NCBI RefSeq assembly: GCF_012516435.1
Contig: NZ_CP051216.1
Span: 3,771,501-3,835,500 of the forward strand
Source of the DNA: Pseudodesulfovibrio sp. zrk46
Lineage (GTDB): Bacteria; Desulfobacterota; Desulfovibrionia; Desulfovibrionales; Desulfovibrionaceae
Direction of reading: 5' to 3'
DNA length: 64,000 nt
Within the stretch, counting starts at the first letter, position 1; each line of letters starts with the position of its first letter. Of the stretch, positions 22,050 to 41,702 are shown piece by piece. The notes under the pieces were generated by a model. It saw only the letters and a program-made list of their open reading frames with translations, was not told the DNA's origin and ran no database searches. A program made the position numbers and the translations under genes.

Positions 22050-22069
22050 TTATTCCTCTCTGGAACAGC

Positions 22070-22981: not shown

Positions 22982-23101
22982 CAAATTCTATTATTTTGAT
23001 TGTTTCACAAAGCCAAAAACTCTGCTCAATTAGAATTCCTTGATTGTAAAACTTTATTTGGCTAATATCAATTTTTTATTGTGACGAGGTGACGCACCAA
23101 T

Positions 23102-26724: not shown

Positions 26725-26948
26725 CCACCTGAGAAGATGGTACAAACATTATCACCAGACAGTTTCTCTACAAAGACAAAAGGGCTATTTTAACTTTAAT
26801 GGGGACAAAACTGATAAAAATGACGCAAGTCAGGCCTTGACGCATCCTCCCCATCATTTATTAGTACTCAAGCGAATGCGACTTAGATGATATGGTAGGC
26901 GCATCGCATATAACAAAGATCAATACCTAATTGAAAACAGGATACAGC

Positions 26949-27935
26949 ATGCTCAACGGCAAAAACATACTTATTACAGGCGGCACCGGCTCTTTCGGCA
27001 AAAAATTCGTCGAGATGGTCCTGAAGAAATACACTCCGAACAAGCTGATCATTTTCAGTCGTGATGAACTCAAGCAGTTTGAGATGGCACAGGAGTTTTC
27101 CCCTAAAGAGCACCCCTGTATTCGCTATTTCATTGGTGACGTTCGCGACAAGGAACGCCTCTACCGCGCATGCCGTGATGTGGACATCATTGTCCATGCA
27201 GCTGCCATGAAGCAGGTTCCGGCTTCCGAGTACAACCCGACCGAAGCTATCAAAACCAATATTTACGGCGCACAGAACCTTATCAATGTTGCTGCAGACC
27301 TCGGCGTGGAATGTGTTGTAGCTCTGTCTACAGATAAGGCTGTTGCACCGGTTAACCTCTACGGCGCAACCAAGCTCGCTTCGGACAAGCTGTTCGTTGC
27401 AGCGAATGCTTTCGCCATCGGCCCCCGGTATTCCGTTGTTCGCTACGGTAATGTTCTCGGCAGCCGTGGCAGCGTAGTTCCCTTCTTTATGAAGAAACGC
27501 AACGAAGGCGTCCTGCCCATCACCGATGACCGCATGACCCGCTTCTGGATTCTTTTGGAAGACGCTGTGGAAATGGTATTTCGCGCCATTGAAACTTCTG
27601 CTGGTGGAGAAATCTACGTACCCAAGATTCCCAGCATGAAGATCACCGACATGGCCACCGCGATCGCACCTGATTGCAAACAGAAGGTTGTAGGCATTCG
27701 CCCCGGAGAAAAGTTGCACGAGTGCATGATCCCGGAAGAAGAATCCCGCAACGTAGTGGAGACGGAATACGGCTATACCATCCTGCCAGAAACCGAAGTT
27801 TTTAACTACAAGGGTGACTTGTCCAAGGCCAAGACTGTTCCCGAAGGATTTGCCTACGATTCAGACACCAACACAGAATGGATATCCGTTGAAGAACTCC
27901 GTGAGATCTTAGTCAAACAAGGATACGAGCTATAG
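26949..27935 (+). CDS. pseB: UDP-N-acetylglucosamine 4,6-dehydratase (inverting)
   Basis: A 328-residue extended SDR enzyme. The NADP site is ILITGGTGSFGKKF at residues 7-20, the SDR YxxxK-type site is LYGATKLASDKLF (about 140), and KQVPASEYNP and HECMIPEEESRNV are typical of PseB. It catalyses the first step of CMP-pseudaminic acid synthesis, 4,6-dehydration with C5 inversion of UDP-GlcNAc. CAGGA lies 6 nt before the ATG at 26949; the upstream TTG start is unsupported. It leads a tightly packed series pseB-pseC-pseF-pseGH. Confidence 0.95.
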   Translation: MLNGKNILITGGTGSFGKKFVEMVLKKYTPNKLIIFSRDELKQFEMAQEFSPKEHPCIRYFIGDVRDKERLYRACRDVDIIVHAAAMKQVPASEYNPTEAIKTNIYGAQNLINVAADLGVECVVALSTDKAVAPVNLYGATKLASDKLFVAANAFAIGPRYSVVRYGNVLGSRGSVVPFFMKKRNEGVLPITDDRMTRFWILLEDAVEMVFRAIETSAGGEIYVPKIPSMKITDMATAIAPDCKQKVVGIRPGEKLHECMIPEEESRNVVETEYGYTILPETEVFNYKGDLSKAKTVPEGFAYDSDTNTEWISVEELREILVKQGYEL

Positions 27936-27938
27936 GCT

Positions 27939-29054
27939 ATGCCCAAAATCCCTTACGGTAGACAACACATCGACGAAGATGACATCCGGGCCGTGGCGGA
28001 AACGCTGCGGTCCGATTTCCTTACAACCGGCCCCAAGGTCGGCGAATTCGAACAGGCTGTTGCCAACTTTTGCAACGTCCAACATGGTGTAGCCGTATGC
28101 AACGGCACTGCCGCGTTGCATGCGGCCATGTTTGCCCTTGGAATTGGCTCAGGAGACGAAGTCATTGTACCTCCAATGACTTTTGCTGCATCCGCTAACT
28201 GCGTTCTTTACATGGGTGGTACGCCGGTTTTTGCCGATGTACAGGAAGGCTCTCTGCTTATTGATCCGGCCAAGGTGAAAGAAAAAATCACATCAAACAC
28301 CAAAGCGATCATTGCGGTGGACTACACTGGCCAACCCTGCAATTGGGAAGCGCTTCGTTCTCTGGCAGACAAGCACAACCTCGCGCTTGTCGCCGACGGC
28401 TGCCACGCTCTGGGGGCAAGCTACAAGGATCGCAAAGTCGGCTCCATAGCGGACATGACTGTTTTCTCTTTCCATCCGGTCAAACACGTTGCTACCGGCG
28501 AGGGTGGTATGATCCTTACCGACGACGCGGAACTGGACGCCAAGCTTAGGACCTTCCGCAACCATGGCATAACCACCGACGCTCGCACCCGAGAAGAAAG
28601 TGGGGCATGGTTCTATGAAATGGTGGAACTGGGCTACAACTATCGCATCACCGACATCCAAGCAGCCCTTGGTGTCAGTCAAATGGCAAAACTCCCTGCC
28701 TTCTTGGAACGCAGAAGGGAGATTGCAAAGCGATATGACAAGAGTTTCGCAGGAACCAATGTTATCCCATTAGCTGTCTCCGAAGAGGTTGAGCATGCGT
28801 ATCACCTGTACGTGGTAAGGCTTGCCAATCGTGACGAAGTTTACACAATGCTACGTGATGCTGGAATCTTTGCCCAAGTTCACTATATTCCGGTCCATCT
28901 GCATCCTTATTATCAAGAGAAGTTAGGAACAGGTGAAGGACTCTGTCCTATAGCAGAGGCGGCCTACAAAGAGATTCTATCCCTGCCCATGTATCCAGGG
29001 CTCACTGACCAAGAACAAGATTATGTGATCAAGACTGTACTGGAGCTCGCATGA
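27939..29054 (+). CDS. pseC: UDP-4-keto-6-deoxy-AltNAc 4-aminotransferase
   Basis: A 371-residue DegT-family PLP enzyme. It starts MPKIPYGRQHIDEDDI, has phosphate-binding CNGTAALHAAMFAL, cofactor site VADGCHALGA and Schiff-base Lys in FSFHPVKHVATGEGG (about residue 182). PseC aminates the 4-keto product of PseB. It lies 3 nt after pseB and overlaps pseF by 4 bp, so the operon position confirms the assignment over other DegT-family roles. Confidence 0.94.
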   Translation: MPKIPYGRQHIDEDDIRAVAETLRSDFLTTGPKVGEFEQAVANFCNVQHGVAVCNGTAALHAAMFALGIGSGDEVIVPPMTFAASANCVLYMGGTPVFADVQEGSLLIDPAKVKEKITSNTKAIIAVDYTGQPCNWEALRSLADKHNLALVADGCHALGASYKDRKVGSIADMTVFSFHPVKHVATGEGGMILTDDAELDAKLRTFRNHGITTDARTREESGAWFYEMVELGYNYRITDIQAALGVSQMAKLPAFLERRREIAKRYDKSFAGTNVIPLAVSEEVEHAYHLYVVRLANRDEVYTMLRDAGIFAQVHYIPVHLHPYYQEKLGTGEGLCPIAEAAYKEILSLPMYPGLTDQEQDYVIKTVLELA

Positions 29055-29743
29055 ATATAGCGGTTATTCCTGCACGTGGGGGCAGCAAACGGATTCCTCG
29101 GAAAAACGTCCGTGAATTCTGTGGTAAACCTATCATCGGGTATTCCATTGAAACCGCCCTCGCCACAAACTTGTTCTCTTCGGTTATAGTTACCACCGAT
29201 GATAAAGAAATAGCTGAAGTCGCAAGATCTTTTGGTGCAGAAACTCCGTTCATACGACCAACTGAATTATCCGATGACCACACAGGCACTACACCAGTCA
29301 TTCGACATGCCCTGCAATGGTGCCTCGATAATGGCCGAGATGTGGAGACAGTGTGTGGCCTTTATGCCACAGCTCCATTTATCACCGCACAGGACTTGCG
29401 TAAGGGCTATAACGCCCTTCCAGAGGCCCCGGCAGCCTTTGCTGTGACAACCTTTCCATTCCCCATCTATCGAGGGGTAAAGCAGAGTGATGACGGGAAA
29501 GTCTCCATGATCTGGCCCGAACACATGCTGACTCGCTCGCAAGACTTACCAGAGGCATTCCACGATTGTGGCCAGTTTTATTGGGCAACATCCGAATTCC
29601 TACTCTCTGGCAGGGAATTCATGGAAGGCGAAGCCGTTGGGGTCCAAATCCCCCGTCACCGGGTGCAGGATATCGACACGGAAGAGGACTGGGTAAGAGC
29701 TGAAGCCATGTTCCGTGTTCTCAAGGAAACGGGGGAACTGTGA
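29051..29743 (+). CDS. pseF: pseudaminic acid cytidylyltransferase
   Basis: A 230-residue CMP-sugar synthetase. The N-terminal nucleotide-binding motif is IPARGGSKRIPRKNVREFCG, followed by GYSIETAL and VTTDDKEIAEVA; the C-terminal acidic VQDIDTEEDW is the family metal site. It activates the nonulosonic acid with CTP to give CMP-Pse. It overlaps pseC by 4 bp at its start and pseG-H by 4 bp (GTGA) at its end, so translation of these genes is coupled. Confidence 0.93.
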   Translation: MNIAVIPARGGSKRIPRKNVREFCGKPIIGYSIETALATNLFSSVIVTTDDKEIAEVARSFGAETPFIRPTELSDDHTGTTPVIRHALQWCLDNGRDVETVCGLYATAPFITAQDLRKGYNALPEAPAAFAVTTFPFPIYRGVKQSDDGKVSMIWPEHMLTRSQDLPEAFHDCGQFYWATSEFLLSGREFMEGEAVGVQIPRHRVQDIDTEEDWVRAEAMFRVLKETGEL

Positions 29744-31209
29744 TCGGGACATTGACCATCAGAGCCGACTGCTCAACAACTATCGGCACAGGTCATGTCA
29801 TGCGAATGATCGCTCTTGGTCAGGCATGGAAGCAGCTTGGTGGTAAAGTTCGCATAGTCGGTCAAATAACCCCACTTATTGATAGACTCTCCAACGAACA
29901 TTTCGAACTTGTTAATTTAGATAACACCTACCCGTCTCCCGAGGACATTGAAGTCTTACTAGAGGCTACTTCAAAGAACGAATGGATTGCGATAGATGGA
30001 TACCAATTCGATTCGGACTATCAAAAACAGATTCTTGAAGCCGGCAGAAGGACCTTGGTCCTTGACGATGTCAATGATCGTGGTCGCTATTACGCTTCAG
30101 CTTTGCTGAACCAAAATCCAGACGGCAATCATTATGATTATAAAGTGAACGAGGATGCCATACGCTTACTTGGCTCTCGCTTTGCTCTTCTGCGTCACGA
30201 ATTCCTCTCACATCCTCGAAAGGACTCTACAACGTCGAGTAAACCCCGAAATATACTCGTCACGCTGGGGGGGGGAGACCCCACCAATATGACGGGCACG
30301 GTGATAGAAAGTATCACCCAAATTGACAGTGACGACCTGCACGTCAAAGTTGTGTGCGGTGCAGCAAACCCCCATTTAGATAAGCTGAAAACCACCGCAT
30401 CCAACTTGAAGTGCCATTGCGAATTCCTGACCGCTGTCAATGATATGCCCTCTCTCATAAATTGGGCAGATATAGCAATCTCTGCAGCAGGATCTACCTG
30501 TTGGGAACTCTGCTATTTCAGAGTTCCGACTGTGGCCATTCAAATTGCAGACAATCAGAAAGGGATCATTCGCGAACTAAACCGCATTCAAGCCGCCATC
30601 TGCTTGAGTATGGATACGAAAGCAAATGACATTACCAAAGCACTGTCTAGCTTGCTGACAAACACAGACAAGCGGAAACTCATTGAAAAAGCATGCAGCA
30701 CTATAGTTGACGGAAAAGGAGCTCACAGAGTGGCTTGCGCCTTGCTCAATGCCGATATTCGACTCCGCCCTGCCACTGTTGATGATAGCCGTCGACTATA
30801 TAATTGGCGCAACCACCCTGCCGTCAGAGCTCGCTCATTCCAATCAGACCCGATTGAATATGGAAGTCATGAGGCTTGGTTTAAATCTAAACTTGCTGAT
30901 GCCTCCTGCAAAATTTTCATTGCTGAATCTACCAATGGCACAGCCTTAGGCCAAATCAGGTTTGAAGGTATGCCTACCGAAGCATTGATCAGCATCAGTG
31001 TAGCGCCAGACCATAATGGACGTGGAATTGGTACACATATTACAAAACTTGGATGCCAATCCATTGAGGCAATATACCCTGGCATCCCAGTAACAGCTTT
31101 CGTCATGAAAGATAATCCTGCTTCAGCTAACATGTTCCGAGCAGCAGGCTTCATTTCGGCCCCCAATGACGCAGATGATTCACTCAAGTTTGAATGGAAG
31201 CATTCCTAA
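29740..31209 (+). CDS. PseG-PseH fusion: UDP-sugar hydrolase plus N-acetyltransferase
   Basis: A 489-residue fusion. Residues about 1-335 match PseG, a GT-B-like hydrolase releasing 2,4-diacetamido-2,4,6-trideoxy-L-altrose from UDP: IRADCSTTIGTGHVMRMIAL with the family His, LGGGDPTNMTG and SAAGSTCWELCYF. Residues about 340-489 are a GNAT domain like PseH: LRPATVDDSRRLYNWRNHP, then VAPDHNGRGIGTHI as the acetyl-CoA loop. In Campylobacter and Helicobacter these are separate proteins, and PseH acts before PseG, so the fusion joins consecutive steps. GTG start shares GTGA with the pseF stop. A weak AGCCC/GGGCT hairpin follows. Confidence 0.92.
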   Translation: MIGTLTIRADCSTTIGTGHVMRMIALGQAWKQLGGKVRIVGQITPLIDRLSNEHFELVNLDNTYPSPEDIEVLLEATSKNEWIAIDGYQFDSDYQKQILEAGRRTLVLDDVNDRGRYYASALLNQNPDGNHYDYKVNEDAIRLLGSRFALLRHEFLSHPRKDSTTSSKPRNILVTLGGGDPTNMTGTVIESITQIDSDDLHVKVVCGAANPHLDKLKTTASNLKCHCEFLTAVNDMPSLINWADIAISAAGSTCWELCYFRVPTVAIQIADNQKGIIRELNRIQAAICLSMDTKANDITKALSSLLTNTDKRKLIEKACSTIVDGKGAHRVACALLNADIRLRPATVDDSRRLYNWRNHPAVRARSFQSDPIEYGSHEAWFKSKLADASCKIFIAESTNGTALGQIRFEGMPTEALISISVAPDHNGRGIGTHITKLGCQSIEAIYPGIPVTAFVMKDNPASANMFRAAGFISAPNDADDSLKFEWKHS

Positions 31210-31296: not shown

Positions 31297-32457
31297 ATGT
31301 CTAATACGATTAAATACTGCACCAAATGCGTGATGCCCGAAACCAAACCCGACCTCTGGTTCGACGAGAACGGTGTCTGCGCGGCCTGCAATTTTTTCGA
31401 AGAGCGCGCTGAAATCGACTGGGATGCCCGTCAAACCGAACTAGAACATATTCTGGATCAATACCGCTCCAATGACAGTTCCAATTATGACTGCATCATC
31501 CCTTGCAGTGGTGGAAAGGATTCAACCTACCAGACCCTTACCATGCTGGACATGGGCATGAATCCTCTTTGCGTCACCGCCACCACGGACCGTCTCTCTC
31601 CCATCGGTCGCAGAAACATTGAGAACATCAAGAAACTCGGCGTGGACTACATTGAAGTTTCCACGAACCCAGTGGTCAGGCGTCGCATCAACAAACTCGC
31701 TCTCGAGCAAGTTGGTGATATATCATGGCCTGAGCACCTGACAATTTTCACCATCCCGGTTCGCATCGCCGTAATGCACAACGTGCCGCTCATCGTTTGG
31801 GGCGAGAACTCCCAGAATGAGAATGGCGGTCCCGCAACCCAGGCTGGAGACAAGCACCTCACCCGCCGTTGGCTTGAAGAATTCGGAGGCCTCCTTGGTC
31901 TTCGTGTCACTGACCTTGAAGGACAGGCAGACATAGAGAAAAAGCACCTCATTCCCTACACCTATCCCTCTGACGAAGATCTGGCTCGTGTGGGTGTGAC
32001 CGGCATTTTCCTCGGCTACTACAAGCAATGGGATGGGCTTTCCAACGCGCTGGTTGCTGCAGCCCACGGTTTTGAAAGCTGGCCCAACACTGTCGAAGGC
32101 TCCATCGTCAATTACGAGAACCTCGACAACGAGCAGATGCGCATCCACGACTATTTCAAATTCCTCAAGTACGGCTACAGCCGTGCAACAGATTGGGCCT
32201 GCTGGCACATCCGCCGCGGTCGCCTCTCTCGCGAGCAAGGCATGCAGTTGGTTCGCCGCCATGAGGGCAAGTTTCCTTGGTCCTACCTCGGCACAGACCT
32301 GGAGACCATTCTGGAAGAAATTGATATGACCCTGGATGAGTTCACCGCTGTCTGTGATCGCTTCACGAACAAAAAGATCTTTAAAACAGATCGTCGTGGA
32401 AATCTCCTGCGCACCCGTAATGGTGACCTCGTCCGCGTCAACGACGACAACGTCTAG
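31297..32457 (+). CDS. N-acetyl sugar amidotransferase, set 1 (WbpG/PseA family)
   Basis: A 386-residue PP-loop enzyme. A zinc-ribbon-like CTKC...CAAC pair lies at about residues 8-35, and the ATP pyrophosphatase loop CSGGKDS at about residue 70. Family members (WbpG, PseA, PtmG) use ATP and ammonia to turn an N-acetyl group of a sugar into an acetamidino group. AGAGAG lies before the ATG. The HisH-like gene starts 15 nt downstream and the HisF-like gene follows, giving a full ammonia-supply set. The likely target is a pseudaminic acid N-acetyl group; which position is unknown. Confidence 0.9.
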   Translation: MSNTIKYCTKCVMPETKPDLWFDENGVCAACNFFEERAEIDWDARQTELEHILDQYRSNDSSNYDCIIPCSGGKDSTYQTLTMLDMGMNPLCVTATTDRLSPIGRRNIENIKKLGVDYIEVSTNPVVRRRINKLALEQVGDISWPEHLTIFTIPVRIAVMHNVPLIVWGENSQNENGGPATQAGDKHLTRRWLEEFGGLLGLRVTDLEGQADIEKKHLIPYTYPSDEDLARVGVTGIFLGYYKQWDGLSNALVAAAHGFESWPNTVEGSIVNYENLDNEQMRIHDYFKFLKYGYSRATDWACWHIRRGRLSREQGMQLVRRHEGKFPWSYLGTDLETILEEIDMTLDEFTAVCDRFTNKKIFKTDRRGNLLRTRNGDLVRVNDDNV

Positions 32458-32472
32458 CCGGGACATCTGTTT

Positions 32473-33099
32473 ATGCTGACCGTCGCCGTTGTCGATTACG
32501 GGGTTGGAAATATCGGCTCTATTTCTCGCGCCTTGTCCGTCTGCGGAGCAAAACCGCTCCTAACGGACAAGGAAGAGGACTTTAAAGTTGTGGATGCCTG
32601 CATCCTGCCGGGTGTCGGCGCTTTCGGCGATGCAATCCAACTGCTAAGGGAGCGCAACCTCGACAAGATTCTTGAAGACCAAATCATCGCCTACGACATC
32701 CCCATCCTCGGCGTTTGCCTTGGTATGCAGCTCCTGGCCAGCCGGAGTTTTGAAAATGGCGAGCACGAAGGATTAGGATGGATCCCAGGCTCTGTAGTTC
32801 CTTTTACTCCAGAGAATAACGAACGGATCCCCCATGTAGGATGGAACAACGTTGAGTTCGAAATATCCACCCCCCTGCTGGCGGATATCCCTCCGGGAGA
32901 AGACTTTTACTTCGTTCATAGTTTTCATTTCCAAACCAACGATCCCTCTCACGCAATTGCTACAACGCCGTATTGCGGAAAATTCACTTCTGTCGTCAAC
33001 AAGGGCAATGTCTATGGAACCCAGTTCCATCCGGAAAAAAGCCAAGGAATTGGTCTGAAGCTGCTCAAGAATTTCATCAAGCTCAGCGAGGAATACTAA
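32473..33099 (+). CDS. HisH-like glutaminase, set 1
   Basis: A 208-residue class I glutamine amidotransferase of the HisH type. The oxyanion-hole segment is GVGAFGD, the nucleophile Cys is in LGVCLGMQLL (about residue 81), and the His/Glu of the triad are in GTQFHPEKSQG. In true HisH this protein releases ammonia into HisF. Here it lies between a sugar amidotransferase and a HisF-like gene with no other his genes nearby, as with P. aeruginosa HisH2/HisF2 and WbpG. It therefore most likely supplies ammonia for acetamidino-sugar formation. The HisF-like gene starts 1 nt downstream. Confidence 0.9.
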   Translation: MLTVAVVDYGVGNIGSISRALSVCGAKPLLTDKEEDFKVVDACILPGVGAFGDAIQLLRERNLDKILEDQIIAYDIPILGVCLGMQLLASRSFENGEHEGLGWIPGSVVPFTPENNERIPHVGWNNVEFEISTPLLADIPPGEDFYFVHSFHFQTNDPSHAIATTPYCGKFTSVVNKGNVYGTQFHPEKSQGIGLKLLKNFIKLSEEY

Positions 33100-33100
33100 C

Positions 33101-33862
33101 GTGCTAAAGACACGAATCATTCCCACCCTGCTTTATCGTGATTACGGGCTGGTAAAAGGCGTGGCCTTTGACAGCTGGCGTCATGTTGGGTCGCTGATGC
33201 AGTCCATAAAAGTCTATAACATGCGCAATGTTGACGAACTGATCATCGTGGATATCAAAGCCACTAATGACGGCCGTAAACCTGACTTCGGCTGGGTCAA
33301 TGACTTTGCTGATGATTGTTTCATGCCTTTGACCGTTGGCGGTGGCGTCACAGATATCGATCATGTAGGGGGCCTACTGGACGCCGGTGCGGATAAGGTG
33401 GCAATGAATACTGCTGCGGTAGACAACCCCATACTCATCAGTCAGGTTGCGAACAAATACGGTTCGCAGTGTGCCATCGTATCCATAGACTTCAAGAGGC
33501 ATGAAGATGGTTATCTGGAAGTCGTGACGAATTCCGGAAAGAATCAACGAGGGATCGACCTTGTTGAATTTGCTAAGGAAGCAGAAAGCCGTGGGGCTGG
33601 TGAGATTTTGATGACGTCAGTAGAGCTAGACGGCACCATGAAAGGGTACGACCTTGAAGCAGTTAAGGCCGTCAGTGATGCGGTATCAATCCCGGTTATT
33701 GCCTCTGGCGGAGCTGGGAACTACGAGCACATGCTTCAGGCAATCCAACAAGGGGGAGCCACCGCTGTTGCAGCTGCTTCCATTTTCCACTTCACTGAAC
33801 AGACACCGGCTGAAGCACGCTCACACCTTCGTAAGGCTGGAATTCCTGTTCGCAAGGACTGA
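33101..33862 (+). CDS. HisF-like ammonia-channel protein, set 1
   Basis: A 253-residue TIM barrel closely resembling HisF, including VGGGVTD, SIDFKRHEDG, GAGEILMTSVELDGTMKGYD and PVIASGGAG. True HisF begins IPCLDV, whose Asp11 is one of two catalytic aspartates; here the equivalent stretch is IIPTLLYRDYG and the Asp position is Leu. The second catalytic Asp (in SID, about residue 130) is kept. This suggests that cyclase activity is lost while the barrel still conducts ammonia to the amidotransferase. GTG start, 1 nt after the hisH-like gene. Confidence 0.88.
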   Translation: MLKTRIIPTLLYRDYGLVKGVAFDSWRHVGSLMQSIKVYNMRNVDELIIVDIKATNDGRKPDFGWVNDFADDCFMPLTVGGGVTDIDHVGGLLDAGADKVAMNTAAVDNPILISQVANKYGSQCAIVSIDFKRHEDGYLEVVTNSGKNQRGIDLVEFAKEAESRGAGEILMTSVELDGTMKGYDLEAVKAVSDAVSIPVIASGGAGNYEHMLQAIQQGGATAVAAASIFHFTEQTPAEARSHLRKAGIPVRKD

Positions 33863-33871
33863 GCTCCAAGC

Positions 33872-33900
33872 TTGACACACCCTCACGCCTGCGAGACATT
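33872..33900 (+). promoter_or_regulatory. candidate internal promoter before pseI
   Basis: A consensus TTGACA is followed after 17 nt by GACATT (3 of 6 matches) in the 90-bp gap between the first hisF-like gene and pseI. The -10 is weak, so this is tentative. Confidence 0.3.
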
Positions 33901-33952
33901 ACCGCAATCCTGCTGACACGTTCAAAAAGCAATGCCGACATGGCGGATTCCC

Positions 33953-34990
33953 ATGGCTAAAAACACCATTTTATCTTCATCTGGACCGGCTTTCATCATA
34001 GCCGAAATGAGTGCCAACCATGGTCAGGATTTCGACCGTGCAGTGAAAATCATCGAAGCTGCCCATGCAGCCGGTGCTGACGCCATCAAACTCCAGACAT
34101 ACACCCCAGATACTATTACCCTTGATTGTGACAACGAATATTTCCAGATCAAGGGAACCATTTGGGAGGGCCGGACACTCTACGACCTTTATGGAGAAGC
34201 GTTCACTCCTTGGGAGTGGCATCCCAAACTGAAAAAAGTGGCCGACGAATTGGGACTGTTGTTTTTCTCTACCCCTTTCGATCATACCGCTGTGGATTTT
34301 CTGGAAGAACTCGACGTCCCCTGCCATAAGGTTGCGTCGTTTGAATTGGTAGATATCCCACTCATCCGAAAAATAGCCTCGACCGGCAAACCTGTTATCA
34401 TGTCCACAGGGATGGCCACTGAAGCAGAGATTGAAGAGGCGGTAGCAGCATTCAAAGAGGCTGGAGGGACCGAGATGGCGCTTCTGAAATGCACCTCTGC
34501 TTACCCTGCGCCTCCTGAGGAAATGAACCTGCTCACCATCCCCTATCTCGCAAAAAAATACGATGTTGTAGCAGGTCTCTCCGACCACACCATGGGCATT
34601 GAGATGCCTATTGCAGCAGTTGCACTTGGAGGGCGGGTCATTGAAAAGCATTTTTGCCTAAATCGCTCAGAGGATGGCCCTGACACGTCATTCTCTTTGG
34701 AACCACATGAATTTAAAGCTATGGTGGAAGGCGTTCGCAATGTGGAAAAAGCTCTCGGCTCCGTCCACTTTGAATTGACGGAAAAGCAAAAATCGAGCGT
34801 AGTATTCCGTAGGTCTCTTTTCGTTGTAAAAGACATAGCCAAAGGTGAACCGCTTACCACTGAAAATATTCGCTCGATTCGTCCCGGTAACGGATTGCAT
34901 ACCCGTCATTTGGAAGAAGTAATCGGAAAGACAGCAGTCGTAGACATTGCCAAGGGAACTCCACTCCAGTGGGATTTACTGACCAACTAA
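33953..34990 (+). CDS. pseI: pseudaminic acid synthase
   Basis: A 345-residue NeuB-family enzyme that condenses 2,4-diacetamido-2,4,6-trideoxy-L-altrose with PEP. The N-terminal TIM barrel has FIIAEMSANHGQDFDRA, DAIKLQTYTPDT, STPFDHTAVDFL and KCTSAYPAPPEEMNL; the C-terminal antifreeze-like (SAF) domain spans about 285-345 (SIRPGNGLHTRHL). The W-E-rich EWHP segment and LYGEAFTPWEW favour PseI over NeuB or LegI. The start at 33953 follows a GGCGGA; the upstream ATG at 33932 has no ribosome site. It sits between the two amidination sets. Confidence 0.94.
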   Translation: MAKNTILSSSGPAFIIAEMSANHGQDFDRAVKIIEAAHAAGADAIKLQTYTPDTITLDCDNEYFQIKGTIWEGRTLYDLYGEAFTPWEWHPKLKKVADELGLLFFSTPFDHTAVDFLEELDVPCHKVASFELVDIPLIRKIASTGKPVIMSTGMATEAEIEEAVAAFKEAGGTEMALLKCTSAYPAPPEEMNLLTIPYLAKKYDVVAGLSDHTMGIEMPIAAVALGGRVIEKHFCLNRSEDGPDTSFSLEPHEFKAMVEGVRNVEKALGSVHFELTEKQKSSVVFRRSLFVVKDIAKGEPLTTENIRSIRPGNGLHTRHLEEVIGKTAVVDIAKGTPLQWDLLTN

Positions 34991-35013
34991 CCAACTTCAA
35001 ATAAAGTACGACC

Positions 35014-35628
35014 ATGATCGGCATCATAGATTACGGAATGGGCAACCTCGCGTCTGTCCGCAATGCACTCAACTCCATTGGTGCTGAGTGTAATATTGTC
35101 TCTACCCCGGAAGAACTCTCCCAAAGTGACAAGGCAGTGCTTCCCGGTGTCGGCGCATTTGGCGATGCCATGAAAACCCTCAACTCCAAAGGGTTCACGG
35201 AAGTAATCAGATCTTTTTCCCTTGATGACAAAAAGCCAATTATGGGTATCTGTCTCGGCATGCAGCTCATGTATGAAGAAAGCGCCGAATTCGGCCCGCA
35301 TCCCGGCTTGGGACTTGTCGAAGGAAAGGTTCTCCCACTGGCCGAGTACATACAAGATCTTTCGATTCCCAACATTGGCTGGTGTCAAACCGAACGCAGT
35401 GGCGACTCTCGACTCATTCAGAATTTGACGGACCAACAACTCTGCTTCTATTACGTACACTCCTTTTTCTGTCGGGCTGAGGACCGCTCAGTAGTAACGG
35501 CAACGCTCGATTACGGGACGACCTGCGACGCCATCATTGAGAAAGAGAATATTTTCGCCTGCCAATTTCACCCAGAGAAGAGCCAGGCTTCCGGCATAGA
35601 AATTCTTAAAAAATTTGTGGAGCTATAG
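35014..35628 (+). CDS. HisH-like glutaminase, set 2
   Basis: A 204-residue HisH-type glutaminase. GVGAFGDAM forms the oxyanion strand, MGICLGMQLM holds the nucleophile Cys (about residue 78) and CQFHPEKSQ the His/Glu pair. It is clearly related to the set 1 glutaminase but differs through much of its length, so this is not a recent tandem copy. It lies 23 nt after pseI and 2 nt before its HisF-like partner. Role: ammonia supply to the second sugar amidotransferase. Confidence 0.9.
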   Translation: MIGIIDYGMGNLASVRNALNSIGAECNIVSTPEELSQSDKAVLPGVGAFGDAMKTLNSKGFTEVIRSFSLDDKKPIMGICLGMQLMYEESAEFGPHPGLGLVEGKVLPLAEYIQDLSIPNIGWCQTERSGDSRLIQNLTDQQLCFYYVHSFFCRAEDRSVVTATLDYGTTCDAIIEKENIFACQFHPEKSQASGIEILKKFVEL

Positions 35629-35630
35629 CC

Positions 35631-36419
35631 ATGCAATACAGGAGACTCATTCCTGTCTTGTTTATTATGAACGGACTGATCGTTCGTAGCGAGGATTTTT
35701 CCACGCACCAGATCATCGGCAACATTATCAATGAAGCTGCCCGATACAATCAATGGAACGTGGATGAACTCATCTATGTAGACATCAGCCGAGACAAGAC
35801 GTATGATTCCCGGCGCGACGATCATAAGATCAAAGCGGTGGACTCCATTGAAACGATCATCACTGAAATTTCCAAAGTCTGCTTTATGCCCCTTACATTT
35901 GGCGGTGGCATCAAGACCATAGAAGACGTGGATTTGCGCATCCGAACCGGAGCAGATAAGGTCGTTATCAACTCGGCGGCATACCACACCCCAGAACTTA
36001 TTACGGAAGTAGCCCGAAAGTACGGCAGCCAATGCTGTGTCATTTCGGCTGACTACCGCATGGTTGACGGCACCCCCATCTTGTTCACCGATTTCGGGAG
36101 CAACAACACGGGCATCAATGTCGTTGATTGGGTTAAGGAATGCCAAAAGAATGGTGCCGGAGAGATTTTCCTGCACGCCATCGACCGAGATGGCAAAGCA
36201 TGCGGTTACGACTTCGACACCATTTCTGACGTCACCAGTGCCACGTCACTGCCTGTTATCGCCTGTGGCGGTGCGGCCGACGTAGATGACTTCATCGACG
36301 TATACGAAGAAACCAATGTCGCGGCCGTAGCCGCAGGCAATATGTTCCACTTTACGGAACGCGCGTATCCCCGCGCCAAAAAGGACCTCGTAAGGGAGAA
36401 AATACATGTCAGACCATGA
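35631..36419 (+). CDS. HisF-like ammonia-channel protein, set 2
   Basis: A 262-residue HisF-like TIM barrel with FGGGIKTIEDV, SADYRMVDG, GAGEIFLHAIDRDGKACGYD and PVIACGGAA. The position of HisF Asp11 is replaced: the N-terminus reads LIPVLFIMNGLIV, with Phe in place of Asp. The second catalytic Asp (in SAD) is retained. Set 1 shows Leu at the same place, so both copies appear to have lost the same catalytic residue. The end overlaps the amidotransferase gene by 14 bp, indicating coupled expression. Confidence 0.88.
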   Translation: MQYRRLIPVLFIMNGLIVRSEDFSTHQIIGNIINEAARYNQWNVDELIYVDISRDKTYDSRRDDHKIKAVDSIETIITEISKVCFMPLTFGGGIKTIEDVDLRIRTGADKVVINSAAYHTPELITEVARKYGSQCCVISADYRMVDGTPILFTDFGSNNTGINVVDWVKECQKNGAGEIFLHAIDRDGKACGYDFDTISDVTSATSLPVIACGGAADVDDFIDVYEETNVAAVAAGNMFHFTERAYPRAKKDLVREKIHVRP

Positions 36420-37596
36420 TCGCAAATATCTCGTTCACCCCGAGCGACCGCCCAAGATGCGCTACTGCTCCAAGTGTGTCAGCCCCATGTCTTCGGCTGC
36501 CCCCATCACTTTTGATGATGACGGCATCTGCTCGACTTGCAAAGTGGCTGACCAGCGAGATGAAGTAGATTGGGATGCCCGCATGAAAAAGTTCAAACGT
36601 CTTTGCGAACGCTACCGCAGCAAGGACGGTATGAACTACGATTGCGTCATTCCTGTATCAGGCGGCAAGGACTCCTATTTCCAGGTCCATATCATGAAAA
36701 ACGTGCTAGGCCTGAATCCGCTTCTAGTCACCTACCACGGAAACAACTACCTTCCCACCGGCATGGAGAACCTGAAGAACATGCGGGAAGTGTTTGGGTG
36801 CGACCACATCTTTTTCACCCCTTCCATCGAAGTCCTCAAGACCATGAACCGCCTTGGCATGCTCATGATGGGCGACATGAACTGGCACGCCCACTGCGGT
36901 ATCAATACATACCCCATCCGAGTGGCTGTTGAGACCAATACCCCCCTGATGATCTGGGGTGAGCACGGTTTCATGGATATCGGAGGTATGCACTCCTACA
37001 ATGACTTTGTAGAGTTCACCTACCGCAACCGTCACGAACACGATCTTCGTGGTTTTGAATGGTATGACTTCGTTGAGGCCGCACCCAAGTTCGGTGAAAA
37101 GCTCGAAGCCAAAGACATGATCGGCTTCATGCACCCGAGCGACGAAGACATGGATCGTGTAGGCGTTCGAGGTATCCACCTCAACAACTACGTCCGCTGG
37201 GATGCCAACGAACATGGCCCCATGATGGTCGAAATGTACGGTTTCAAGGAATCCGAAGAAGAATTCGAACGCACCTACCGCCGCATGTCTAACTTGGACG
37301 ACATGCATGAAAATGGTATCCACGACTATCTCAAGTACATCAAGTTCGGATACGGACGAGCGACTGACCACACCTGCAAGGATATCCGTGCAGGCCTCAT
37401 GACCCGTGAGCAGGCCATTGAAGAAGTCCGTATCCGCGACCACGTCAAGTCCAAGGATTTATGGCGTTGGCTAGAATACGTAGGCTGGACCGAAGAGTAC
37501 TTTGACGAAGTCTGCGATCGTTATCGTGATCCCCGTGTATGGTGGAAAGGCGAGAACGGTGAGTGGGTCAAAGACAATCTCTGGGACAAAGAATAG
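36406..37596 (+). CDS. N-acetyl sugar amidotransferase, set 2 (WbpG/PseA family)
   Basis: A 396-residue PP-loop amidotransferase. It has a zinc-ribbon-like CSKC...CSTC pair (residues about 21-47), the SGGKDS loop (about 84) and a C-terminal region ending WWKGENGEWVKDNLWDKE. It is related to the set 1 enzyme but visibly divergent, with extra N-terminal residues and a His-rich middle (HAHCGINTYP). The gene order here is HisH, HisF, amidotransferase, whereas set 1 has the amidotransferase first. AGGGAG lies ahead of the ATG, inside the end of the hisF-like gene. Confidence 0.9.
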   Translation: MSDHDRKYLVHPERPPKMRYCSKCVSPMSSAAPITFDDDGICSTCKVADQRDEVDWDARMKKFKRLCERYRSKDGMNYDCVIPVSGGKDSYFQVHIMKNVLGLNPLLVTYHGNNYLPTGMENLKNMREVFGCDHIFFTPSIEVLKTMNRLGMLMMGDMNWHAHCGINTYPIRVAVETNTPLMIWGEHGFMDIGGMHSYNDFVEFTYRNRHEHDLRGFEWYDFVEAAPKFGEKLEAKDMIGFMHPSDEDMDRVGVRGIHLNNYVRWDANEHGPMMVEMYGFKESEEEFERTYRRMSNLDDMHENGIHDYLKYIKFGYGRATDHTCKDIRAGLMTREQAIEEVRIRDHVKSKDLWRWLEYVGWTEEYFDEVCDRYRDPRVWWKGENGEWVKDNLWDKE

Positions 37597-37616: not shown

Positions 37617-37919
37617 ATGCAGTACGACATCAAGATCACTGTCATGAAAAAGCTCTTTCATGAGGACTTGGTTCAACAGTACACAGATGAGCCAGCCAAA
37701 TGGACCCCATGTAAAAAATTTAATGTGGGAGACACATTCCACATTCCCGGCAATAGCCCCTGGGATAAGCCTGAAGGCTTTTGCGGCTGGGCTTGGGCAG
37801 ACCTTCAGAAAATGATCTGGGGCATGGCTCGCGGCGGCCCGAAGCGATTTGTTTCCTGCTGCACTGATGGCTATCGCCCCGTAGTTTTCTTGCTGGAACA
37901 GCTCGAAACGCCCTCATAA
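37617..37919 (+). CDS. TIGR04076-type small protein
   Basis: A 100-residue protein recognised as TIGR04076-like from ITVMKKLFHEDL, a central PEGFCGWAWADLQKM and a C-terminal CCTDGYRPVVFLLE. Members are small Cys-containing proteins of unknown function. AAGGAGG lies 8 nt before the ATG, and the gene begins 20 nt after the second amidotransferase, so it belongs to the glycosylation operon. The conserved Cys residues (about 55, 81, 82) could bind a metal. A role in sugar amidination or sulfur chemistry would be speculation. Confidence 0.72.
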   Translation: MQYDIKITVMKKLFHEDLVQQYTDEPAKWTPCKKFNVGDTFHIPGNSPWDKPEGFCGWAWADLQKMIWGMARGGPKRFVSCCTDGYRPVVFLLEQLETPS

Positions 37920-37932
37920 ACAGACTGACCGA

Positions 37933-38964
37933 ATGACTGATATCACCAATATTCATCCCAAGCGCATCTTGGTCTGCCAGCTTAGGCAGATCGGTGATGT
38001 CCTTTTGGCCACGCCCTCCCTCCGGCTGCTTAAAGAAAAGTATCCTGACGCAATCATCGATGTATTGACTGAAAAAAAGTGCCTGCCGGTATTAGAGAAC
38101 AACCCCAACATTAACAAAGTCTGGCCCATAGACCGCAAGGCCCTCAAAAATCCGCTCAAGGCCCTGTTGTACTATGCGAAGGTCGGTCGCCAACCCTATG
38201 ACCTCATCGTTGATTTTCAGCAACTCCCACGCTGCAAGTGGGTAGTGCGATTTTCAAAGGCTCCGGTCAAACTCAGCTTCACGCCCCACTGGTACAACAA
38301 ATATCTATACACGCACTGGGCCAAGCCAAAAATCGGCTATGCAGCCATGTGCAAGGCAAGTGTGCTTGCTCCGCTCGGCATCAAGTGGGATAGAGAAAGG
38401 CCTGAGATATTTCTCACGGATACCGAGAAAAAAGAGGCCGATGTTTTCTGTACAGAACATGGAATCACAGGCCCCTATATCACCATCGATCCCAGCCACA
38501 GAAGGGAAACCCGACGTTGGCCTTCCAGGCACTACGCTGGCCTTATGAAGCTCATTCGAGAGCAACATCCTGACATGGAATTCGTCATTCTGTATGGTCC
38601 TGGCGAAAAAGAACTGGCAGAGAAGGTGATTAAACAGGCAGGTATGGGTATCGTTCCCAACACCATGCTCAGTCTGCGCGGCATGGCAGCAGTGCAAGAT
38701 AAAGCCGTCATGCACGTAGGCAACTGTTCATCTCCCCGCCACTTTGCCGTAGCGGTCGACACTCCCTCTCTCACCATTCATGGTGCCACAGGATATGGCT
38801 GGCGTTTTCCCTCCGAAGAACACATCAGTGTAACTAAGGATATCCCCTGCCGTTGGTGCAACAAAAATTCATGTGAAACTCGTGAATGCGTTGAGACTTT
38901 CGAACCACAAGAATGCATAAAAGAAGCCCTTGACCTTATAGCCAAGGGCTTCGCAAAGAAATAG
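37933..38964 (+). CDS. GT9 (heptosyltransferase-like) glycosyltransferase
   Basis: A 343-residue GT-B enzyme of family GT9. The N-terminal part has ILVCQLRQIGDVLLATPSLRLLKEKYPDA, the family-typical start, and the C-terminal nucleotide-sugar domain has ITIDPSHRRETRRWPSRHYAGLM, MHVGNCSSPRHFAVAVDTPSLTIHGAT and a Cys-rich PCRWCNKNSCETREC before the C-terminus. GT9 usually uses ADP-heptose. At the end of the pseudaminic acid operon it may build LPS or a flagellin glycan. It converges on the DUF4915-like gene with 16 bp between. Confidence 0.85.
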   Translation: MTDITNIHPKRILVCQLRQIGDVLLATPSLRLLKEKYPDAIIDVLTEKKCLPVLENNPNINKVWPIDRKALKNPLKALLYYAKVGRQPYDLIVDFQQLPRCKWVVRFSKAPVKLSFTPHWYNKYLYTHWAKPKIGYAAMCKASVLAPLGIKWDRERPEIFLTDTEKKEADVFCTEHGITGPYITIDPSHRRETRRWPSRHYAGLMKLIREQHPDMEFVILYGPGEKELAEKVIKQAGMGIVPNTMLSLRGMAAVQDKAVMHVGNCSSPRHFAVAVDTPSLTIHGATGYGWRFPSEEHISVTKDIPCRWCNKNSCETRECVETFEPQECIKEALDLIAKGFAKK

Positions 38965-38980: not shown

Positions 38981-40183
38981 CTACAACACGATAATCGAGT
39001 GAATTTCGGAGAGTTTTGAAGGCAGGCTCAAGCTTCGGGACACCTTGGTTGTAGCATCAAAAACGATAATGGACGTATCAATGGATATGTTCATGGAGAG
39101 TCCGAGGTACTTACTGTAGTTCCTGTTACGGCTCTGGCCAATGTAGTGGAATACACCATCGTAAGCCAAACCGCGACTGAAGCCTGGGAACTTGCCGATG
39201 GGCTGAGCGTTGTGGGTTTTGAGTTCACCGCGCAGGGAATCAAGCACAGCAAGGCTTCCATTGATCGCACAGATATTATGCGGCATCCAAAGGTTCTGAA
39301 CGACCGGATTCAGCACCTGCTTGGTATCCAGGTCTATTTCCAGAACAACGCCATCAAAGACATCCTTCTTCCAGTTACCGGTCATCGAGAACATAGAGAC
39401 ATAGAGGCTTTCTCCGTAAGCACACACATCGTTAATGTGGTGTTGCGGTTCACCGGTCTGCGCATGTTTATGAGACACATTAATTTGATCAACCTGCTTG
39501 AAGTCGCGGTCGAAAACCAAAATGGCATCAAGATAAGTGGAAGCAACATAGAAACACTGTGTATGTTCAGAGTATGCCACACCATGAGGACGTGACCCTG
39601 TGGGCACTTCGGCATTCCTAATAACCTTGTAATCTTTGGACATCTGCACTAGTCCCAATTCAGAATGAGAAGCGATAATGTCACCTTCAAAATGAATAAG
39701 GCCATGGCTGGGCCCTTCGAGCACCTTACGGTACTTCCAATCGCCATCCAACTCCAGTTCGTAGATACCGCCACCAGCTTCAGGATCATCCATACCGGGA
39801 AGGCCACTGGAAAAGAGCAGCTTGGTCTTCAGGGACTCGATGTCAGATATGATGCGCAGGTCATTGAGGACCGGACTGACAATAAAATCTTTCAAAGGAT
39901 CAAAGCCGTACTCCATGAGCTGTTCAGAAACTTCCATGAAAGAAGTGGTGCAGATAAGCACGTAATACTGATCGCTCTTACCGTTAATGACTTCGGGCTT
40001 CTTGATGGTCACGCCCAATTCATGTTCTTCCCACAGGTTCGCGTTGTTATCCACGATCATGGAAAGAGGTCTATCCAGGCGAAGTTTGGTCTTTTTGGTG
40101 ATATTACCTGCACCGAAAAGTACGATCTCACGATCGCCCAGATTCTTGTAAACATCAGCGTATGAACTGAACATGATATCCAT
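38981..40183 (-). CDS. DUF4915-like protein with Rossmann-type N-terminus and beta-propeller-like C-terminus
   Basis: A 400-residue protein. Residues about 15-110 carry a nucleotide-binding-like IVLFGAGNITKKT and VLICTTSF, resembling the N-terminal domains of flagellin-modification proteins. Residues about 130-400 consist of repeated four-stranded units (for example DGDWKYRKVLEGPSHGLIHFEGD and GVAYSEHTQCFYVASTYLDAILVFDRD) typical of beta-propellers such as DUF4915. It has no signal peptide. Together with the next minus-strand gene it likely forms a two-gene glycan operon, and a role in handling modified sugars is inferred only from location. Confidence 0.65.
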   Translation of the reverse strand: MDIMFSSYADVYKNLGDREIVLFGAGNITKKTKLRLDRPLSMIVDNNANLWEEHELGVTIKKPEVINGKSDQYYVLICTTSFMEVSEQLMEYGFDPLKDFIVSPVLNDLRIISDIESLKTKLLFSSGLPGMDDPEAGGGIYELELDGDWKYRKVLEGPSHGLIHFEGDIIASHSELGLVQMSKDYKVIRNAEVPTGSRPHGVAYSEHTQCFYVASTYLDAILVFDRDFKQVDQINVSHKHAQTGEPQHHINDVCAYGESLYVSMFSMTGNWKKDVFDGVVLEIDLDTKQVLNPVVQNLWMPHNICAINGSLAVLDSLRGELKTHNAQPIGKFPGFSRGLAYDGVFHYIGQSRNRNYSKYLGLSMNISIDTSIIVFDATTKVSRSLSLPSKLSEIHSIIVL

Positions 40184-40224
40184 AGGTTCAATAACTCCGT
40201 ATTATTGGTCTATCCCTATTACTC

Positions 40225-41574
40225 TTACTTATCGTGATAACGCAGTCTGAAACAGTCAATGTAAGCCTGCGTGATATCCAGATCAGCAAAACGGGAATCA
40301 TAAAATGCAAATCGTTTTACGTGGGCTTTAAACTCATCAAGAGTAAGTTCTTTCCACTTAGCGTGAGGATTCACGACTTTTTCTTTACCGGTAATCTTAC
40401 GCAACCACGGCTTGAGTCTGCGATTCAAATTTCTCAAGTAAGCATTGATACGCTGAGAGAACTGATACATAGGCTCAGCATCGCGCTTGATGTCCGCAAT
40501 TCTCTTGAAATGCCCAATAGTCGCAGTAGCCGCCATGGGACCATCCACCGAAGCAACATACTTCTTCGCCGCTTCGCGCCAAACGGACTGCATGGACGCC
40601 ATATCTTCATCACGCTCACCAGACAGGCATTCGCAAACATCATCAGCATTACGAACAAGATATGCGACTTCGTCTGCCATACCATGAGTGATCAGTTCAT
40701 CTTCGATGGGAAGATAGGAAATGCAAGGCACATCCATCAAAAATGTTTCTGCGGCAGTGGAACAACCGTGCTGAACAATGACCATCTCCGAGGCGAGAAT
40801 CCAATCATGGACATTCCCCTCTCTCACCAAGTGGGCATTGGGAACCTCTCGGTCAATTTTTTCCCAAATGGCCATATCCTCAGCAGGATGAGGACGAATA
40901 ATAAAGTTTCTGTCAGGGAAACGTGCGCAGGCAACCGGAATCATTTCCTGGAAGCTTCTGAAAACTTCAGTATCCCAAGCCACGTAACGTCGAAGCAGAT
41001 CTGCCGGACCAGACTCACCAGATTTGGTGAGACGATCAATATGCGCCTGACCATCCGTATGGTTTACTACGGAAGCACGGGAGTTAACGAGAACAATACG
41101 TCCCCACTTCTCTTTTAACTTGTCAGCCCTTTCCTGCAGGAAAGGACGCAACTCCTTGGAAAGCAGATCAAGGCGGACATTTCCCACGGGGGCTGACTTT
41201 GCACCAAGTTCTGGCAAACCACGTTCGACCACATCCTGTTGATACTGTCCCCAAGTCAGATGAAGATCGATCCCGTCACAAGCGGGTTGCGTCAGACTGT
41301 GATTGCGATAGGATTTCTCATTAAAAATGAATCCTTCATCGTCATTGACCACGATACGATATCCAAGACGTTTAAGATGCCTGTGTAAAGCAGGATATTG
41401 CGTATGAAGGCTTTTGTCGTAATAAATCCCTGGTTCAGACATAACGACATGACGACGCAACATATCCTCTTCGCCGATGACAACATCAAATCCTTCCAGC
41501 GCAGCAGAACATGCGAGGAACGTTTTGGCGTCAAATTCGCGAGAGGTAATTTCGACAACAATATATAATTTCAT
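40225..41574 (-). CDS. surface carbohydrate biosynthesis protein (CDP-glycerol transferase-like GT-B fold)
   Basis: A 449-residue protein similar to the surface carbohydrate biosynthesis family. An N-terminal Rossmann half starts KLYIVVEITSREFDAKTFLA, and the C-terminal half has FIIRPHPAEDM, VREGNVHDWILASEMVIVQHGCSTAAETFLMDVPCISY, the nucleotide-binding motif of CDP-glycerol glycerophosphotransferase-like enzymes. The last 70 residues are basic. It begins at 41574; the open frame upstream lacks a ribosome site. The DUF4915-like gene follows 41 bp downstream on the same strand. Confidence 0.75.
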   Translation of the reverse strand: MKLYIVVEITSREFDAKTFLACSAALEGFDVVIGEEDMLRRHVVMSEPGIYYDKSLHTQYPALHRHLKRLGYRIVVNDDEGFIFNEKSYRNHSLTQPACDGIDLHLTWGQYQQDVVERGLPELGAKSAPVGNVRLDLLSKELRPFLQERADKLKEKWGRIVLVNSRASVVNHTDGQAHIDRLTKSGESGPADLLRRYVAWDTEVFRSFQEMIPVACARFPDRNFIIRPHPAEDMAIWEKIDREVPNAHLVREGNVHDWILASEMVIVQHGCSTAAETFLMDVPCISYLPIEDELITHGMADEVAYLVRNADDVCECLSGERDEDMASMQSVWREAAKKYVASVDGPMAATATIGHFKRIADIKRDAEPMYQFSQRINAYLRNLNRRLKPWLRKITGKEKVVNPHAKWKELTLDEFKAHVKRFAFYDSRFADLDITQAYIDCFRLRYHDK

Positions 41575-41702
41575 GAAGGGTATACTCTCAAAAAAGTACA
41601 ACCGCCCTCAGGCGGCAAAATCGGGAGACAATATTCACCCAGCAAGACAGTTGTCAAGGCAACGAGACCCTAATGCAGATAATGGACAGCAGAGTAGACC
41701 TA

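Follow-up and report, generated by a model that had tools for sequence, protein, structure and literature searches.

Two amidotransferase-HisH-HisF sets flank pseI in the pseudaminic acid operon of Pseudodesulfovibrio sp. zrk46 and probably amidinate both N-acetyl groups of one sugar

We analyzed a stretch of 64,000 nucleotides from the genome of Pseudodesulfovibrio sp. zrk46 (contig NZ_CP051216.1, positions 3,771,501 to 3,835,500; referred to as the window) which carries a full operon for the biosynthesis of pseudaminic acid (Pse). Within this operon, the pseudaminic acid synthase gene pseI is flanked by two complete sets of genes, each encoding an N-acetyl sugar amidotransferase (NASAT), a HisH glutaminase subunit and a HisF subunit of the WbuZ/HisF2-like ammonia-channel type. 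The gene order is PseB-PseC-PseF-PseGH-AT1-HisH1-HisF1-PseI-HisH2-HisF2-AT2, followed by a small protein of the TIGR04076 family and a GT9 glycosyltransferase. All genes are located on the plus strand, and neighboring genes either overlap by 4 to 14 bases or are separated by gaps of less than 90 bases. Set 1 consists of the PseA-type amidotransferase AT1 (31297..32457; TIGR03573, 332 bits), HisH1 (32473..33099; TIGR01855, 224.4 bits vs. a cut-off of 105.4) and HisF1 (33101..33862; top match WbuZ, TIGR03572, 287.4 bits). It is separated by PseI (33932..34990; TIGR03586, 507.7 bits vs. a cut-off of 340.25) from set 2, consisting of HisH2 (35014..35628; TIGR01855, 213.8 bits vs. the same cut-off of 105.4), HisF2 (35631..36419; top match WbuZ, 244.4 bits) and AT2 (36406..37596; TIGR03573, 327 bits). 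A first-pass annotation had described set 1 as amidotransferase-HisH-HisF and set 2 as HisH-HisF-amidotransferase, and its coordinates, order and strand were all right. The upstream part of the operon encodes PseB, an inverting UDP-GlcNAc 4,6-dehydratase (26931..27935; TIGR03589, 510.8 bits vs. a cut-off of 407.75), the UDP-4-amino sugar transaminase PseC (27939..29054; TIGR03588, 479.4 bits vs. 423.5), the CMP-Pse synthetase PseF (29051..29743; TIGR03584, 302.1 bits vs. 205.7) and a fusion of the PseG hydrolase to a GNAT acetyltransferase domain for the PseH role (29740..31209; TIGR03590, 209.8 bits vs. 153.55). PseB, PseC, PseF, PseG and PseI thus all score above their curated cut-offs. The GNAT part of the fusion matches PF13302 (45.3 bits), and its match to the PseH profile is weak (29.1 bits vs. 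a cut-off of 93.1).

Both amidotransferases are above the cut-off of the TIGR03573 family (WbuX, NASAT; 203.2 bits). A tetracysteine motif and the PP-loop SGGXDS have been described for NASAT proteins (PMC10607449). The zinc-ligand cysteines are C8, C11, C28 and C31 in AT1 and C21, C24, C42 and C45 in AT2, and the PP-loop SGGKDS is found at residues 71-76 and 85-90, respectively. In an alignment of 94 amidotransferases, 17 columns were near-invariant (conserved in at least 93% of the sequences), among them the tetracysteine motif and all but one of the six PP-loop positions. All 17 are kept in AT1 and AT2, as is the Lys of SGGKDS. HisH1 and HisH2 both keep the nucleophile Cys (CLGMQ) and the His-Pro-Glu motif (FHPE). 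In HisF1 and HisF2 the cyclase Asp11 is lost (Leu or Phe; Leu in HisF1), while the Arg, Glu, Lys and Glu gate residues are kept; residue numbers and gate residue names are those of T. maritima HisF. Asp11 is also lost in WbuZ and in the PseA-linked HisF of Campylobacter, and the genome's own HisF (L001) has the Asp. The SGGKDS motifs and the HisH Cys and His/Glu motifs had been read correctly in the first-pass annotation.

The WbuZ profile TIGR03572 and the AglZ-HisF2 profile NF038364 are the top two matches for both HisF proteins, although their cut-offs are not reached (TIGR03572: 287.4 and 244.4 bits for HisF1 and HisF2 vs. 299.7; NF038364: 265.8 and 204.9 bits vs. 310). The cut-off of TIGR00735, the HisF of imidazole glycerol phosphate synthase, is not reached either (261.4 and 203.4 bits vs. 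294.55). A role of the two sets in histidine biosynthesis was rejected because Asp11 is lost, the HisF cut-off is missed, and the genome's HisF and HisA are encoded elsewhere. Comparison with the relative in L045 (L-numbers refer to stretches fetched from other genomes or from the zrk46 genome itself) gave ratios of nonsynonymous to synonymous substitution rates (dN/dS) of 0.053 for AT1, 0.047 for AT2, 0.030 for HisF2 and 0.083 for HisH2. These values point to purifying selection on both sets, and both look functional from their sequences.

AT1 and AT2 are 35% identical over 378 residues. A tree was built from 94 amidotransferase sequences, using only open reading frames (ORFs) of at least 300 amino acids, with long ORFs cut at the hidden Markov model coordinates. 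Seven near-identical clade C rows were omitted, as were fifteen WbuX-like or long-branch names from the final trees. The groups were unchanged under the LG+C20 mixture model. AT1 groups with Campylobacter PseA in clade A, whose 15 rows have support of 100/99 (100 with the mixture model), and is 47% identical to a Campylobacter PseA copy beside pseI. AT2 is excluded from this clade and belongs with 20 others to clade B (21 rows, support 100/99). Both are outside the PtmG clade and the LpNASAT/AT3/AT4 clade, which, like clade X, are separate groups with support of 100/100 each. Clade X is sister to PtmG (98/93), and clade E, another Pse-linked type, has weaker support (94/55). PseA and PtmG in the Campylobacter stretches were identified by gene context. 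The clade A gene there adjoins hisH and hisF; it is also located beside pseI in L137, L138 and L139. The residues R209, R255 and N261 of AT2 are each present in 21/21 clade B sequences, whereas the corresponding positions in clade A hold Leu (15/15), Thr (15/15) and Tyr (14/15). The first-pass annotation had proposed a tree of both sets against PseA and PtmG, in which, as it turned out, AT1 groups with PseA, AT2 falls in clade B and neither groups with PtmG. It had also stated that the sets are not a recent duplication. The low identity and the placement in different, well-supported clades agree with this, and a recent duplication was therefore rejected.

The HisF genes adjoining clade B amidotransferases likewise form one clade, which includes HisF2 (12 rows, Shimodaira-Hasegawa-like approximate likelihood ratio test support of 96); one of the 12 rows adjoins an outlying amidotransferase, and the HisF tree predates the loci added later. 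In addition, three clade B proteins are natural fusions of HisF and amidotransferase (L093 8110-10179, L099 6596-8641 and L154 15034-17106), and the fusion in L099 adjoins PseI in a Pse operon. These fusions suggest that HisF and the clade B amidotransferase act together and, combined with the way the HisF clade tracks the clade B amidotransferases, indicate that the set is a unit.

The zrk46 genome (4.08 Mb, one contig) contains five near-full-length matches to the HisA/HisF family (of eight matches) and three amidotransferases above the family cut-off (of six matches). The third amidotransferase, AT3, belongs to a third set, HisF3-HisH3-AT3, at C1:2,033,310-2,036,073 (L044 8311-11074), which is located in a legionaminic acid (Leg) cluster together with LegB, LegC, two NeuB-like proteins, two NeuC-like proteins and one CMP-transferase-like protein. 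AT3 matches the structurally solved Legionella pneumophila enzyme LpNASAT (8WEX) with an E value of 3e-159 over 397 residues. The amidination of a different sugar therefore already has its own set in this organism.

To see how the two kits are distributed, amidotransferase loci were compared across other genomes. The stretches cover all 36 over-cut-off matches of a first list, every one of which falls within the window's genus (36 genomes), and 61/66, 18/56 and 31/96 of the matches in further lists. Among the 18 of 56, three are from the zrk46 genome and two were already included. The 18/56 and 31/96 samples are biased towards loci with two amidotransferases because they were chosen partly for paired matches. 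Among the Pse clusters of the genus, both sets are present in the window and in L045, set 1 only in L050 and L054, set 2 only in L055, clade E only in L052 and L062, and clades E and B together in L047. Beyond the genus, Pse genes occur with only clade B in L090, L099, L170 and L172, with only clade A in L163 and L164, and with both X and B in L153. The two kits thus assort freely, Pse genes being accompanied by either one of them or by the pair. Clades A and E were not seen together in the clade-by-locus comparison. A nonulosonic acid synthase is present in the fetched stretch of 19/21 clade B loci, the exceptions being L073 and L093.

To count as a double, a locus had to hold a nonulosonic acid synthase plus two amidotransferases assigned to A, B, E, X or Y; adjacent Leg and Pse clusters were excluded, and clade labels were entered by hand. 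Ten loci were counted (the window, L045, L047, L048, L049, L092, L094, L153, L154 and L158), and all ten hold exactly one clade B member. The count omits L138 and L139, where Pse and Leg clusters are adjacent (clades A and D), three loci with a WbuX-like member (L157, L160 and L161, one in each), L162, whose slice holds an A and an X but no synthase, and two Leg doubles in which both amidotransferases belong to clade C (L046 and L155). When the labels of the 44 amidotransferases were shuffled in 200,000 draws, the exactly-one-B pattern gave P = 0.0009, and P = 0.0074 after look-alike loci were collapsed to seven; both values are descriptive only, since clades and pattern had been seen before the test. 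In L092, L094, L153 and L158 just one HisH-HisF pair was found, placed between the X and B amidotransferases, and one ammonia supplier may serve both enzymes.

The Leg doubles parallel the Pse case. In L046 (5692-11218) and L155 (6028-12577), AT4-type and AT3-type clade C enzymes are encoded side by side, and other Leg clusters hold one of the two types. L046 also contains a HisF-containing ORF of 514 amino acids which may be a HisH-HisF fusion. In the Campylobacter genomes G262, G266, G278 and G286 the amidotransferase matches are fragmented, some of them spread over different frames or with an internal stop. The legend of Figure 2 in PMC10607449 lists two Vibrio vulnificus amidotransferases with consecutive accessions (WP_011149293 and WP_011149294), possibly representing a further two-enzyme locus.

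We consider it reasonably probable that the two sets amidinate both N-acetyl groups of one sugar, giving Pse5Am7Am or a mixture of amidinated forms. The kits stand alone in Pse clusters elsewhere, belong to separate clades, and B is paired with non-B in the double loci, all of which favors action at two positions. According to this proposal, one operon would make CMP-pseudaminic acid that is amidinated twice. In each set, HisH would hydrolyze glutamine and HisF would pass the ammonia on to the PP-loop amidotransferase, which would activate the oxygen of the N-acetyl group with ATP (releasing AMP and PPi) and replace it by NH, yielding an acetamidino group. Set 1, being of the PseA type, would modify the acetamido group at N7, and set 2 would modify the other acetamido group, probably that at N5. 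The joint action of the sets would yield Pse5Am7Am or a mixture of the 5Am, 7Am and 5Am7Am forms. What we observed is the gene content, the intact motifs of the active sites, the clades, the free assortment with Pse genes and the way in which B is paired with members of other clades, and from these we infer the reaction, the position, the product, the stage (free or CMP-linked sugar) and the acceptor. A broader form of the proposal, in which the operon product is 5,7-di-acetamidino-Pse and clade B is a "second position" class in nonulosonic acid clusters of at least two phyla, with modular swapping of kits, has in our view an even chance of being right.

The assignment of set 2 to N5 follows from the PseA-type nature of set 1 and from the description of the Campylobacter PseA product as 7-acetamidino-Pse or Pse5Ac7Am (PMC4975691, PMC13317340). 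The C. jejuni form has also been written as Pse5Am7Ac (PMC3068675, PMC3958885). If the PseA position is reversed, the two-position model stands with the numbers swapped. A pseA mutant retained its flagella and had lost the acetamidino group (PMC4690887), so the role of PseA is firm even if the position label is not. Amidination of Pse at N5 has been proposed before, as a 5Am7Ac form of Pse was named from Thermus pili (PMC7203116). No paper on di-amidino nonulosonic acids was found in a literature search with mostly missing coverage of subscription journals, and a search on Desulfovibrio flagellin with pseudaminic acid returned no paper on the topic.

Other explanations for the presence of two sets share part of this evidence. 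The occurrence of each set in Pse clusters lacking the other implies that each can presumably act on Pse by itself, and would also fit a scheme in which the sets make separate mono-amidino forms (Pse5Ac7Am and Pse5Am7Ac) destined for two glycans or acceptors, neither enzyme accepting the product of the other. The second nonulosonic acid pathway in the genome shows that more than one such sugar is made. However, the operon has one PseI and one PseF, so that the two enzymes draw on one common pool of substrate, and nothing in the sequence would keep both products apart, which makes such separation unlikely. The same occurrence pattern is compatible with redundancy, in which the two sets would amidinate a single position, possibly at two stages (the UDP intermediate and the CMP-sugar) or under different conditions, and phylogeny alone gives no position, as the X and B loci illustrate. 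Redundancy predicts neither the ten out of ten B and non-B doubles nor the strong purifying selection on both sets, and we regard it as improbable.

The first-pass annotation had raised two possibilities, amidination at two positions of Pse or on two different sugars; the comparative evidence supports the former best and makes the latter less likely, because each set occurs beside Pse genes elsewhere without the other. In a version of the latter, set 2 would amidinate a different sugar from the operon or its surroundings, for example an amino sugar produced through the DegT aminotransferase and acyltransferase encoded at 20943-22984 or a sugar of the L-FucNAc type derived from the PseB product. 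The involvement of WbuX in the synthesis of L-FucNAm in E. coli O145 (PMC10607449) and the upstream location of the DegT and acyltransferase genes speak for this version. AT1 and AT2 are only 22-23% identical to WbuX (AT2 23%) and lie outside the WbuX group, leaving a FucNAm-type function of set 2 unsupported. Moreover, clade B sets occur in Pse clusters without set 1 (L055, L090, L099, L170 and L172), and the frequent presence of a nonulosonic acid synthase at clade B loci also argues against another sugar, so that we give this explanation little credence. Inactivity of one set, or a different function for it, is very improbable: the near-invariant residues are intact in both amidotransferases (17/17), as are the motifs of HisH and HisF, and dN/dS is about 0.05 for both amidotransferases.

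A number of points weigh against double amidination of Pse. The synthase is neither clearly of the Pse nor of the Leg type in 10/21 clade B loci, and hence the substrate of clade B is not Pse alone. The pairing test was post hoc, and the related observation that no double holds two members of one clade was not significant (P = 0.041 for the ten loci and 0.116 for the seven). In L162, A and X lie about 12.5 kb apart in a slice that contains neither B nor a synthase. The placement of the L154 partner, a long-branch row, is unsure. The positions given to the sets rest on Campylobacter PseA, on which the papers disagree. Reading the amidinated position straight from the tree was rejected, because B is also paired (in six loci) with clade X, the sister group of PtmG. 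HisF1 and HisF2 remain under the curated WbuZ cut-off, and dS between the window and L045 is high throughout, near or at saturation, with no computable value for HisH1, HisF1, PseF and PseI. The match of the PseH domain is weak, and the acyl group at N7 may therefore not be acetyl.

Set 1 resembles the Campylobacter PseA system in clade, in the AT-HisH-HisF order next to pseI and in its 47% identity. Unlike in Campylobacter, it is one of two sets in one operon; in the Campylobacter stretches (L137-L150) the Pse genes showed no further amidotransferase among them, and the PtmG-type gene lies among Leg genes. PtmG of Campylobacter and LpNASAT of Legionella are the enzymes that form the N5 acetamidino group of legionaminic acid. 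They belong to the TIGR03573 family like AT1 and AT2, but to clades that exclude both. WbuX/WbuY/WbuZ of E. coli O145 and WbpG/HisH2/HisF2 of P. aeruginosa have the three-component chemistry in common with the two sets, and act on hexoses (L-FucNAm and ManNAc3NAmA; PMC10607449). The other nonulosonic acid loci with two amidotransferases (L045, L047-L049, L092, L094, L153, L154 and L158, and L046 and L155 of the Leg type) combine different clades or sub-clades. The window has two full sets, whereas in L092, L094, L153 and L158 a single HisH-HisF pair was found. The first-pass statement that one such set is used in known systems is right for WbuX/WbuY/WbuZ and PseA; it does not hold for PtmG, which has no adjacent HisH/HisF in the Campylobacter stretches, or for the four loci where one HisH/HisF pair was found between two amidotransferases.

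Downstream of set 2, the TIGR04076 family protein (37617..37919, plus strand; 50.9 bits vs. a cut-off of 33) and the GT9, heptosyltransferase-like glycosyltransferase (37933..38964, plus strand; PF01075, 64 bits) follow. The small protein is probably a member of the Pse operon. Its relatives adjoin amidotransferase or HisF genes in L045, L050 and L054, the only ones among 19 stretches compared in which they were seen and all carrying set 1, and it is a possible partner. On the minus strand at 20943-22984, a DegT aminotransferase gene adjoins a hexapeptide acyltransferase gene, the product of which we take to be fused to a WxcM/FdtA-like domain; the two perhaps serve a 3-amino-3,6-dideoxy sugar. 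Beside the operon, also on the minus strand (38981-41601), are genes for a DUF4915/TIGR03032-like protein and a TIGR04396 "surface carbohydrate biosynthesis" protein, and L045 has similar neighbors. Pfam searches detected neither flagellin nor Maf among the 30 scanned ORFs of the window. Two MptE-like genes (Maf family) are located outside the window at C1:261,745 and C1:1,013,030, and no flagellin was present among the eight neighboring ORFs scanned with Pfam. Flagellin is thus a putative acceptor. The organism is likely a sulfate reducer, since its genome contains dsrA (609 bits).

If Pse is indeed doubly amidinated, the residue would have a mass of 314.159 Da by our own arithmetic (-0.984 per amidination) and would be easy to look for next to the published residue masses of 316.127 and 315.143 Da (PMC4975691). 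Where acetamidino nonulosonic acids are known, they bear on O-antigen type, phage-protein binding and flagellar behavior. The free assortment of the kits (A only, B only, or A and B) provides a genetic handle on which clade modifies which nitrogen. As a matter of general chemistry, 5,7-di-acetamidino-Pse would carry a net positive charge, because it has two amidinium groups and one carboxylate. If the proposal is true, an acidic sialic acid analogue would become a cationic sugar, and the amidination pattern (none, one or two) would be set by swapping modular kits.

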